A DNA stretch of 49,520 nt, from positions 1 to 49,520 of the forward strand of contig CAMDGX010000027.1 of assembly GCA_945897825.1 (NCBI GenBank), written 5' to 3'. The notes under the pieces were generated by a model. It saw only the letters and a list, made by a program, of their open reading frames with translations, ran no database searches and was not told the origin of the DNA. Positions 22,553 to 28,884 of the stretch are shown here, piece by piece. A program made the position numbers and the translations under genes. The stretch's first letter is position 1, and each line of letters opens with the position of its first letter. This stretch comes from Asaia bogorensis (GTDB taxonomy: Bacteria > Pseudomonadota > Alphaproteobacteria > Acetobacterales > Acetobacteraceae).

Positions 22553-22583
22553 CGAGGGACTCCGCGGACAAGGAAAGCAATGG

Positions 22584-22624
22584 CCAGGGCTCTGCCCTGG
22601 GCCCGCTGGGGCCTGAGGCCCCAG
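22584..22624. repeat. GC-rich tandem hairpin repeat, copy 1
   Basis: Two adjacent perfect hairpins occur downstream of dnaE: CCAGGGC-tct-GCCCTGG (22584-22600) and CTGGGGCC-tga-GGCCCCAG (22606-22624). A related pair occurs at 24012-24050 on the other side of argC. The style is that of REP-like intergenic repeats; it may also limit read-through between dnaE and convergent argC. Confidence 0.75.
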
Positions 22625-22714
22625 ACCCCCATCCCCTCAAGGAGTTGGGTCCAGGGCTCGGTCCGTCGCGCGCAGGTACGCGCCGGAGCAAGTGGGAGCC
22701 AATTACGGTTGCAG

Positions 22715-22748: not shown

Positions 22749-23726
22749 TTATGGCCACACAGCCATGCCATCCAGCCCCGCCGTCTCCGTCAGCCCGCAC
22801 ATCAGGTTCGCATTCTGCACCGCCTGGCCCGCCGCCCCCTTGCCGAGATTGTCGACCACGCCCATCGCGATGATCAGGTTGCGCTCCGGATCGGCCGCAT
22901 AGCTGACGAAGGCGAGATTCGAGCCGGTCGCCCATTTGGTCTGCGGCGGCTGGTCGGTCACGCGCACGAACGCCCGCCCGGCATAGAACCGCCGCCCCGC
23001 GTCCAGGCACTGGGCGGTGGTGGCGCGGCCGCGGCAATACATCGTGGCCAGCACGCCACGCGTCATCGGCACCAGATGCGGCGTGAACACCAGCCCGGCC
23101 GCGCTGCCGCCACTCAGCCGCTCGATCGTCCTGGCCATCTCCGGCATGTGGACGTGCTTGAGCAGCCCGTACGGCACCACGTTCTCGTTGCTCTCGGCGT
23201 AGCCGAACCTGCTGTCGGCGCCGCCCCGGCCGGCACCGGAGATGCCTGTCTTGGCGTCGATCACGATGTTGCCGGGCTCGATGAGCTTGTCGGCCAGTAG
23301 CGGTGCCAGCGCGGTCAGCGTCGCCGCGGGAAAGCAGCCAGGGTTGGCAACCCGGCTCTGGCCATCGATCTGCGCCGGCCAGACATCGGCCAGGCCATAC
23401 CTCCAACCATCGACGTAGCGATGGTCGCCGCCGATATCGACGATCTTCACGCGATCGGGCACCCGCGCCAGCGCCTCGGCCGAGGCCCCCGTGGGCAGCG
23501 ACGCGAACAGCACGTCGAGCTTCGGCAAGGTCGCGGGATCCCACTTCTCGATCACCAACCCGGCCAGCCTGGTCGGCACCCCAGGGAAGCGGTCCTCCAG
23601 CCGGCTCCCGGCGCTGCCGTCGCCTGCGGCGTAGATGAGTTCGAACTGCGGGTGGCCCGCGATCAGGCGCAGCGCTTCGCCGCCACCAAAACCGCTGATC
23701 CCGACAATGCCGACGCGAATACGCAT
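22749..23726 (-). CDS. argC: N-acetyl-gamma-glutamyl-phosphate reductase
   Basis: ArgC makes N-acetylglutamate semialdehyde in arginine synthesis, using NADPH. The 325-residue protein begins MRIRVGIVGISGFGGGE with the dinucleotide-binding loop. The catalytic cysteine is Cys131 in VANPGCFPAA, and the active-site histidine region FTPHLVPMTRG and C-terminal GKGAAGQAVQNANLM mark it as the long (type 1) family. The ATG at 23726 is preceded by AGGAAA; the frame stays open upstream, but it enters the leader and terminator region and does not look coding there. The upstream leader suggests arginine-dependent attenuation. Confidence 0.94.
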   Translation of the reverse strand: MRIRVGIVGISGFGGGEALRLIAGHPQFELIYAAGDGSAGSRLEDRFPGVPTRLAGLVIEKWDPATLPKLDVLFASLPTGASAEALARVPDRVKIVDIGGDHRYVDGWRYGLADVWPAQIDGQSRVANPGCFPAATLTALAPLLADKLIEPGNIVIDAKTGISGAGRGGADSRFGYAESNENVVPYGLLKHVHMPEMARTIERLSGGSAAGLVFTPHLVPMTRGVLATMYCRGRATTAQCLDAGRRFYAGRAFVRVTDQPPQTKWATGSNLAFVSYAADPERNLIIAMGVVDNLGKGAAGQAVQNANLMCGLTETAGLDGMAVWP

Positions 23727-23758
23727 GGACGTTTCCTGTTGCTGGAGTGAAGACAAAG

Positions 23759-23790
23759 AAAAACCCCCGAAGCCAAGGGCTGCGGGGGTT
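23759..23790 (-). terminator. Intrinsic terminator/attenuator in front of argC
   Basis: On the minus strand AACCCCCG (23790-23783) pairs with CGGGGGTT (23769-23762), extended by AGCC/GGCT (23781-23778 with 23774-23771) over a 3-nt loop, and is followed by TTTTTCTTTG. The last T of the stem-run is only about 32 nt before the argC ATG, so it must be overcome for argC to be expressed. Confidence 0.8.
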
Positions 23791-23841
23791 CGAAGGAGCG
23801 GGCTGATGCCGCCTCGGGGGTGGACCGCTAAGCGGCGGACG

Positions 23842-23937
23842 TCACCGGGAGGGGGCCTTTCTGCACGCAGCCACGAGAGCCGCCGCCAGGAAGCAGCGAC
23901 GGCGTCGGTTCGCGGTGCGGAGGCGAAGGTCACCCAT
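23842..23937 (-). CDS. Arginine-rich leader peptide upstream of argC
   Basis: A 31-codon frame starts with ATG at 23937 and stops with TGA at 23842. It begins MGDLRLRTANRRRRCFLA and has eight arginines, four of them consecutive at residues 11-14 (codons CGA, CGC, CGT, CGC), followed by a hydrophobic Ala-rich stretch and a second Cys. GGTGGA precedes the ATG at suitable distance. It lies between a likely transcription start and the argC terminator, as expected of an attenuator leader peptide. The alternative is a tiny lipoprotein, since LVAAC resembles a lipobox, but only six residues would follow the cysteine. Confidence 0.55.
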   Translation of the reverse strand: MGDLRLRTANRRRRCFLAAALVAACRKAPSR

Positions 23938-24011
23938 GGATCCACCGATAAGGGTCCACCTGAACGCCTGTCAAGCCGGGCGTGCCTCCCATCTTCTTCG
24001 ACCATTGAGGT

Positions 24012-24050
24012 CCAGGGGCTCGGCCCCTGGCGGGTCTGGGCGGAGCCCAG
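24012..24050. repeat. GC-rich tandem hairpin repeat, copy 2
   Basis: CCAGGGGC-tcg-GCCCCTGG (24012-24030) is followed by CTGGGC-gga-GCCCAG (24036-24050). The spacing and order (long hairpin beginning CCAGGG, short spacer, second hairpin beginning CTGGG) match the element at 22584-22624, so the two are members of one repeat family flanking argC and its leader. Confidence 0.7.
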
Positions 24051-24093
24051 CCTTGTTTGCTGCCGCCTCTCAACCGGTTCTGGAAAAATTTCC

Positions 24094-27573: not shown

Positions 27574-28569
27574 TCAATCCCCCGCGGCGACGCGGCCGGC
27601 GCGGCGCCGGCGCAGCAGCGCGAGGCCGGCAACCCCAGTGGCCAGGAGCGCCATGCTGGCTGGCTCCGGCACGTTCAGGGCTGGCCCACCCGGCGGCACG
27701 ATGGTGTTGATCACCTGGGTGTTGCCGGTGAACGGCTTGAAGTGCAGTTCGCCGTCGCCCACGAAGTTCTGCGCGAACAAGCCGCCGTCGATCGGGTTGT
27801 TGATGGTGACCGTGGCCAGGGGAGCCAGCACGGTGCCCTGGATGCCGGTGGCGCCGAGCGACACCGAGGTGGCGTTCTCGAAATTCCAGATGACCTTGCT
27901 GCGCCAGTTCTGCCCGTTCATCCAGTTGGGCTGCGCGTTGTAGTTGCCGCTGACGTTGATGATCACGGTGCTGGCGCCGTTGGGGTTCACCGCGATGCCG
28001 GTGTAGGAGCCGAGCAGCGCGGCGGTGATGTCGATCACGCCCACGTTGGCGACGCCGTTCACCGTGGCCGGCACCGCGGTCAGCACCGCGTTGTTGCTGT
28101 TGGCGACGGGCAGCGTGTTGGCCGGCGTGGTCGGGGCCAGCGCCGCGAAGCCGGAGGACAGGGCGGTGATCTGGTTCCACATCTCGGCCTTGGTGGCCGG
28201 GAAGGTCGCGTTGTAGGTGGTGCTCGCCGCACCCGAGAAATTGCTCCCGACATTCGCGGTGCCGATCTTCACCGTGAGCCCGTTGGCGTTGTGCGACGAG
28301 GTGCCGGCGCTGCCGAACACGTTCACCGAGCCGAAGCCCTGCAGCGAGACGCCGAGCGGCACGCCGAAGTTCTGGAAGATGCCGCTGCCCGAGAGGTTCC
28401 CGCCGACCACGACCGGCCCTTCGACATCGTGCAGGGTATGGAAGTTGCCGTTCACGAAGGCATTGAAGCCCGTCAGGATGTCGCTTGCGGTCGGTGCCGC
28501 GCGGGCGGGAACGGTTGCGGCGGCAAGGGTGAGCGCGAAGCCCAAGACGGATGGCAGCAGGAAACGCAT
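27574..28569 (-). CDS. Choice-of-anchor A family PEP-CTERM protein
   Basis: The 331-residue product has a signal peptide (MRFLLPSVLGFALTLAAA, cleavage after ARA near residue 25), a choice-of-anchor A beta-helix/collagen-binding-like domain (FNAFVNGNFHTLHDVEGPVV, GTVLAPLATVTINNPIDGGL, FVGDGELHF), and a C-terminal PEP-CTERM signal starting at residue 300: VPEPASMALLATG, a hydrophobic helix and RRRR. The ATG at 28569 was chosen over an upstream start at 28668 because it places the signal peptide at the N terminus. It should be exported and sorted by an exosortase, and it is followed by devBCA in the same direction. Confidence 0.88.
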   Translation of the reverse strand: MRFLLPSVLGFALTLAAATVPARAAPTASDILTGFNAFVNGNFHTLHDVEGPVVVGGNLSGSGIFQNFGVPLGVSLQGFGSVNVFGSAGTSSHNANGLTVKIGTANVGSNFSGAASTTYNATFPATKAEMWNQITALSSGFAALAPTTPANTLPVANSNNAVLTAVPATVNGVANVGVIDITAALLGSYTGIAVNPNGASTVIINVSGNYNAQPNWMNGQNWRSKVIWNFENATSVSLGATGIQGTVLAPLATVTINNPIDGGLFAQNFVGDGELHFKPFTGNTQVINTIVPPGGPALNVPEPASMALLATGVAGLALLRRRRAGRVAAGD

Positions 28570-28884
28570 GCGATCGGATGCCTTGATTGCTGAACAGAGG
28601 TATTCGATGCCAATGCCGTGCATCGTATGTCGATACGTAACAGACCCGCCGGACCCGGTGCGAGTCACTTATTGTCGAGAAATAGTTACAATGCGTTAAG
28701 TGCGCCCCGTGCAGGCCGGACTTGCCATGGCGGCGCCGATCGGCCATATGGCGCGGGCCGGCGGAGGGCCGTCGGTAATTCACACGCGGGGCACCTTTCC
28801 ATCCTCCAATACGGAGGCGGGATTCCGGTGCCGCTTGGCAATGCCCCGCGGAGGATCAACCGGATACTGGAAAGGAGCACGCCG
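28570..28884. other. Divergent intergenic region PEP-CTERM gene / rpsB (315 nt)
   Basis: No gene is visible. The half near the PEP-CTERM gene is AT-richer and holds a short palindrome CGTAT-gtcg-ATACG (28624-28637) and promoter-like hexamers; the half near rpsB is a GC-rich leader with the hairpin CCTCC-aatac-GGAGG (28803-28817). It must contain promoters for both directions and possibly a site for S2 autoregulation of rpsB. Confidence 0.5.
28672..28700 (+). promoter_or_regulatory. Candidate rpsB promoter
   Basis: TTGTCG (28672-28677) and GTTAAG (28695-28700) are 17 bp apart. A better -10 hexamer, TACAAT (28687-28692), is also present but without a convincing -35. Either would give a leader of about 180 nt before rpsB. 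Confidence 0.3.

Follow-up and report, generated by a model that had tools for sequence, protein, structure and literature searches.

The leader upstream of an argC paralogue (argC2) in Asaia bogorensis is very likely a ribosome-mediated transcription attenuator that senses Arg-tRNA. In the window, the whole 49,520-nucleotide stretch of DNA that was analysed, a short open reading frame (ORF) with a run of arginine codons precedes the gene, and an intrinsic terminator lies between the ORF and the gene (Table 1). These elements, together with the codon choice, the conservation and the complementarities described below, are evident in the sequences themselves. Alternative pairing that depends on the position of the ribosome, a further hallmark of attenuators, was obtained by computation, with weak covariation and a switch that is weak in one group of leaders (L169-L171). 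Of 85 distinct argC2 loci, 67 have a related leader, and the window leader is therefore more than chance; this conservation in relatives suggests that the leader switches argC2 on at arginine shortage. The original prediction, made from the window alone, had proposed such an attenuator upstream of argC and is supported by the conservation and by the stall model, with the qualification that the gene is a second argC copy.

From these features we infer that the ORF is translated, that ribosomes stall on it, that transcription ends at the terminator and that arginine is the signal, in the following course of events. Transcription would begin at or beside the leader ATG. With ample charged tRNA-Arg the ribosome would clear the arginine run fast, segments 1 and 2 would pair behind it (or segment 2 would be covered by the ribosome), and the terminator would form and keep argC2 off. 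With scarce Arg-tRNA the ribosome would stall at the arginine codons and cover segment 1, and segment 2 (GGCUGCG) could then pair with the 5' arm of the terminator (CGCAGCC). RNA polymerase would continue into argC2 or, in relatives, into GNAT or SnoaL-GNAT genes.

Table 1. Elements of the argC2 leader in the window (positions from the first letter of the window)
Feature	Position	Strand	Basis and remarks
-35 box TTGACA	23969..23974	-	Sequence; kept as TTGAC in 60/62 aligned leaders
-10 box TTATCG	23946..23951	-	17-nt spacer after the -35 box
Predicted leader peptide ORF, MGDLRLRTANRRRRCFLAAALVAACRKAPSR, 31 codons, 8 Arg	23842..23937	-	ORF translation
Putative regulatory run CGA CGC CGT CGC, Arg 11-14 (RRRR)	23896..23907	-	Codons read
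Segment 1 (CGCACCGCGAA)	23909..23919	-	Type I form; predicted to pair with segment 2 when the ribosome is absent; pairing imperfect
Segment 2, with GGCUGCG at 23872-23866	23866..23877	-	Partner: segment 1 or terminator 5' arm
Hairpin of Arg codons (GCCGUCGCUG) and near-invariant GCGGCGGC	23879..23903	-	10 pairs, all standard in at least 17 of the 18 type I leaders
Predicted intrinsic terminator	23755..23790	-	5' arm holds segment 3 (CGCAGCC, 23784-23778)
argC paralogue (argC2)	22749..23726	-	N-acetyl-gamma-glutamyl-phosphate reductase family; ATG at 23726

Most details of the architecture first described for the window were confirmed, namely the minus-strand frame of 31 codons with eight arginines, four of them in a row, and the perfect complementarity of GGCTGCG to CGCAGCC in the terminator. 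The stem and T-run of the terminator were likewise found where expected, but the gap between the T-run and the argC ATG is 28 nt and not 32 nt as originally given. Counted from the T that opens the -35 box, the leader ATG lies 37 nt downstream, and folding of positions 23725-23970 beats 200 of 200 shuffles (z -3.6). At gathering scores the window has no match to any Rfam family, and the loci L003, L006, L018 and L092 have none to Rfam cis-regulatory families, only tRNA having reached the threshold. The leader peptide has no Pfam family match at E 0.001, which sets it apart from the DUF2618 leader of speF, as does the downstream gene, argC.

The product of window argC2 scores 281.7 bits against TIGR01850 (cut-off 233.6) and carries Pfam semialdehyde dehydrogenase domains. 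Another argC, of the TIGR01851 kind (389 bits), is located on a different contig of the Asaia genome (G000:C81:9011-9913); by these model matches, window argC2 is a second copy of a different subfamily. Its distribution is patchy, with the gene present at E<=1e-30 in 7 of the 36 family members (own genome counted) of a 60-genome sample. In a comparison that took in the best 80 of 141 relatives, argC2 occurs at 80-91% identity in Acetobacteraceae, Reyranella, Bosea, Methylobacterium, Thalassovita and some Burkholderiales, and also on Paracoccus plasmids and an Agrobacterium plasmid. With 7 of 90 inner branches starred, the argC2 tree has too little resolution to date when the leader was gained or lost. 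The tree labels L005, L028, L052 and L073 as leaderless; a covariance model later found a leader in all four. Rhizobiales bacterium 2SD has two argC2 copies (L031 and L041), each with its own leader. Around the window gene, GC-rich palindromic stretches at about 24000-24060 (GGCTGGGCTCCGCCCAG..) and about 22580-22640 (GGGGCCTGAGGCCCC..) flank argC and look like dispersed repeats. Elsewhere in the window, the protein encoded on the minus strand at 27574-28668 ends in VPEPASMALLATGVAGLALLRRRRAGRVAAGD, which we take to resemble a PEP-CTERM sorting signal.

For the study of conservation, 88 argC2 loci were compared: the best 80 of 141 relatives, four from the 60-genome sample, the plasmid loci and the window. 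Upstream sequence was present for 87 of the 88, and 85 were distinct once two duplicates, L003 (= L084) and L006 (= L082), had been removed; L004 and L068 were dropped as having no upstream sequence. The leader is immediately 5' of argC2 in 63 of the 85 loci, and its ATG aligns in 62 of these 63; L025 has no ATG and was left out of the leader alignment and of the 62. In four of the 22 loci without a leader within 320 nt (L005, L028, L052 and L073) the covariance model located one farther upstream, and at 18 of the 85 none was found directly upstream or by the model. Outside the 85, the model detected no leader at L007 or at L123-L125 (two Paracoccus plasmids and one Paraburkholderia plasmid). 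The aligned leaders fall into type I (n=18, window included), with the run at codons 11-14, and type II (n=43), with the run at codons 10-14; L092 is an outlier belonging to neither, and a further form, MCQTRINADRRRRR.., occurs in three genomes of one genus (L169-L171).

Wider searches gave 47 leader matches at E<=1e-5 in 44 of 397 genomes of the family, a sample that overlaps the 85 loci (e.g. G032, G014, G002 and G019). Strong matches in the class sample (385 genomes) were limited to the own genome, G315 and G393, the latter two with one leader each before argC2, and in the phylum sample (349 genomes) to the own genome. Weak matches in the class sample (five genomes at 29-37 bits and five at 24-28 bits) and in the phylum sample (five genomes at 23-25 bits) were set aside as probable chance. 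G393 also has a second, decayed leader copy (L122, G393:C1:2590585-2590661) with an argC remnant after it; the intact copy sits about 115 kb away on this contig. The arginine run, its codon set, the promoter spacing and the terminator are kept across several orders. Such conservation contradicts the view that the terminator is simply constitutive and the ORF a product of chance in GC-rich DNA. In favour of that view, long open frames are common here on both strands; we give it almost no credence.

The promoter is similarly uniform. TTGAC precedes the leader ATG by 36-38 nt in 60 of the 62 aligned leaders (exactly 37 in 52) and is missing from L071 and L088, and none of the 62 has a Shine-Dalgarno-like GGAG, GAGG or AGGA at -16 to -4 of the ATG. 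On account of this spacing the leader mRNA is probably leaderless, and in the window the predicted transcript start falls no more than about 2 nt from the leader ATG. This geometry also speaks for a rival reading, in which the terminated leader would act mainly in trans as a small RNA or small protein, with control in cis secondary; rnTrpL and peTrpL of Sinorhizobium are a precedent (PMC7298713, excerpts). However, the leader adjoins argC2, GNAT or SnoaL genes in cis in all 45 family loci with enough downstream sequence (window uncounted), and the C-terminus of the peptide is not conserved among leaders, which makes a mainly trans-acting leader very improbable compared with an attenuator acting on the adjacent gene.

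The arginine run starts at codon 10 or 11 in all 62 aligned leaders and comprises at least two consecutive arginines in every one and at least three in 61; it is also found in 46 family loci besides the window. The run persists in leader types with otherwise different residues, those ahead of it being MGDLRLRTAN, MLRNQNLCD, MNFAPSTAD or MCQTRINAD according to type. The reading frame persists until the run is over in 61 of the 62 leaders; by segment 2, indels at several places have put 15 of the 62 in a different frame. Among the same 62 leaders, variation in the codons ahead of the run is not concentrated at the third position, and inside the run variation is low at all positions and slightly highest at the third.

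Codon choice in the run is strict. The 276 run codons are CGC (144), CGA (103) and CGT (29), with no CGG, AGA or AGG, and the first is CGA in all 62 leaders. Arginine codons outside the run in these leaders include 56 CGG, 43 AGG and 18 AGA of 267, and the 1672 arginine codons of argC2 (all 88 loci, with the duplicates counted) comprise 2.3% CGA, 26.9% CGG, 7.5% AGG and 0.5% AGA, the last three together making up about 35%. In window dnaE, CGA accounts for 5 of 97 arginine codons. CGA, CGC and CGU are all read by one tRNA-Arg with inosine. Selective charging of isoacceptor tRNAs has been offered as the explanation for codon bias in attenuator leaders, and Arg families are among those for which it was verified (PMC1183508, excerpts). 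RNA pairing may account for part of the choice, but the third run codon of type II leaders (CGA in 40 of 43) is unpaired, between two modelled helices.

The run could also act through its translated product, in that the Arg-rich chain, alone or with a ligand such as arginine or ornithine, would stall the ribosome in place of uncharged tRNA-Arg. The leader chain is indeed rich in arginine, and SpeFL and TnaC are arrest peptides. Consecutive Arg codons mediate the arginine regulation of Salmonella speF orf34 (PMC6386406, excerpts). Yet the arginine codons persist while the residues before them vary by type and those after them have lost the frame in 15 of the 62 leaders, and the codon bias of the run points to the tRNA rather than to the chain. 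We consider nascent-peptide arrest unlikely, and stalling on uncharged tRNA-Arg is the reading retained below.

Turning to the RNA, the six pairs of the terminator core are standard in 62, 62, 62, 62, 61 and 62 of the 62 leaders. The antiterminator (segment 2 with segment 3) is paired in 92.8% of cells versus 31-56% in slid controls, its outermost pair being formed in 29 of 43 type II leaders and 1 of 18 type I leaders. Changes on both sides of the antiterminator affect three cells: L092 accounts for two (GUGUU with AACAC, beside two broken inner pairs), and the third belongs to a type I leader. The terminator arm of L169-L171 is CGCGAC and faces leader GUCGUG with six pairs, including one G-U, as judged by eye. 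The pairing of segments 1 and 2 is imperfect: in type I two of 11 pairs are standard in 9 and 11 of 18 leaders and the others in 14-18, and in type II one of nine pairs holds in 17 of 43.

The segment GCGGCGG, for which the original prediction proposed a competing downstream hairpin, is near-invariant, but the CCGCCGC downstream in the window is not conserved across the set (by eye). Its best conserved partner is the arginine codons just upstream, and RNAalifold pairs it with the GGCUGCG segment instead. RNAalifold applied to the 62 leaders gave no compensatory pair and predicted a different hairpin; a single consensus fold for all types was not adopted as the model because segment 1 differs by type. 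Comparison of the upstream regions of relatives, proposed at the outset as a check, thus bore out a conserved ATG, arginine run and alternative stems, also beyond Acetobacteraceae, but yielded thin covariation, as the sequences are alike within each leader type.

The switch was modelled by folding the RNA downstream of the ribosome up to the terminator loop, with R1 denoting the first Arg codon. Across the 62 leaders the median antiterminator probability is 0.002 without a ribosome (mean 0.14) and 0.44-0.87 with the A site at R1-5 to R1+8, with a dip at R1+3 and R1+4; it falls from R1+9 and is at most 0.03 from ten codons past R1. When the second Arg codon occupies the A site, the probability exceeds 0.5 in 60% of the 62 leaders versus 23% of 310 shuffles. 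When 94 distinct leaders were modelled (L138, cut by a contig end, and L116, with a mis-indexed start, excluded), values above 0.5 were reached by 84 with the A site within R1-3 to R1+3, by 12 without a ribosome and by none at R1+14; ten never exceeded 0.5, and L165 and L168 did so even without a ribosome. The outlier L092 gave 0.00 without a ribosome, up to 0.60 in the run and 0.00 at R1+14. The corresponding values are 0.16, 0.50 and 0.16 for L169, 0.49, 0.64 and 0.29 for L170, and 0.37, 0.61 and 0.02 for L171, and the modelled switch is therefore weak in this group. Since the antiterminator is favoured several codons before and after the run and dips at R1+3 and R1+4, the fold alone cannot single out the arginine codons.

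The genes that follow the leader are few in kind. Among the 46 family loci besides the window, sorted with in-frame queries, argC2 comes next in 27, GNAT then argC2 in eight, GNAT without argC2 within the 2.5 kb fetched in six, SnoaL then GNAT in three and SnoaL then argC2 in one, with one cut off. Where another gene comes first, leader and terminator remain adjacent to that gene. One genome, G738, carries the leader three times, once before argC2 and twice before GNAT. SnoaL and GNAT form one protein in L169 (491-1324) according to translation and Pfam; L170 and L171 likewise show an uninterrupted SnoaL-GNAT frame in translation. In some genomes the GNAT acetyltransferase family with this leader has a SnoaL-like domain fused to it or standing in its place (L169, L073 at about 2559-2942, L052, L005 and L028). 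Against NCBIfam and PDB sequences the GNAT proteins gave weak, general acetyltransferase matches and nothing closer, so that N-acetylglutamate synthase activity is a guess. A bolder reading, which we put forward tentatively and think doubtful as a whole, is that of a mobile arginine-starvation switch that reads one isoacceptor group (CGA, CGC and CGT, with rare CGA first) and governs a small regulon of the ArgC paralogue and GNAT or SnoaL-GNAT, a reserve arginine route moving with its own control, in which GNAT would perhaps be an alternative N-acetylglutamate synthase.

If the attenuator reading is true, arginine biosynthesis would join the pathways under leader-peptide attenuation, and the attenuator would be one carried as a module by a horizontally moving gene. 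Furthermore, the GNAT family and the SnoaL-GNAT fusion would be tied to arginine supply through shared control. The 95 distinct natural leaders could be used for testing which codons and stems matter.

The attenuation mechanism itself is classical. In the trp, his, leu and thr leaders a short ORF carries consecutive codons for the cognate amino acid, antiterminator and terminator exclude each other, and a biosynthetic gene lies downstream. The window leader likewise has a codon run and predicted exclusive structures, and it precedes a gene assigned to argC by its TIGR01850 match, although this is a second copy beside another argC. In keeping with the original prediction, no described attenuator that places Arg codons ahead of an arginine-biosynthesis gene emerged from the literature searched, which is mainly open access and represents Vitreschak et al. 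2004, a survey of proteobacterial attenuators, by citation only. The descriptions that follow draw on excerpts of the cited articles. The S. meliloti trpL transcript begins with its ATG (PMC7298713), as is predicted for the argC2 leader. In contrast to trpL and to the trp, his, leu and thr leaders, the codons here are Arg codons, the gene is an argC paralogue, the ORF continues through segment 2, and the leader travels with its gene and also precedes GNAT genes. Another alphaproteobacterial upstream ORF, uORFC-8-2 before cysS in Rhodobacterales, has tandem cognate codons usually at positions 14 and 15 and is described as expected for ribosome-mediated attenuation, but with Cys codons and a tRNA synthetase gene (PMC8632094). 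A leader peptide has also been reported from the promoter region of Pseudomonas aeruginosa carA, a gene common to arginine and pyrimidine synthesis, where attenuation is described as possibly pyrimidine-linked and a role of Arg codons is possible (cited in PMC4997734). The nearest described system in these sources is Salmonella speF orf34 (DUF2618), whose upstream ORF has two consecutive Arg codons (12 and 13) and responds to arginine; it differs in serving a polyamine gene and in working, as set out in the excerpts, through Rho, RNase G and a structure masking the ribosome-binding site, with no intrinsic terminator (PMC6386406).
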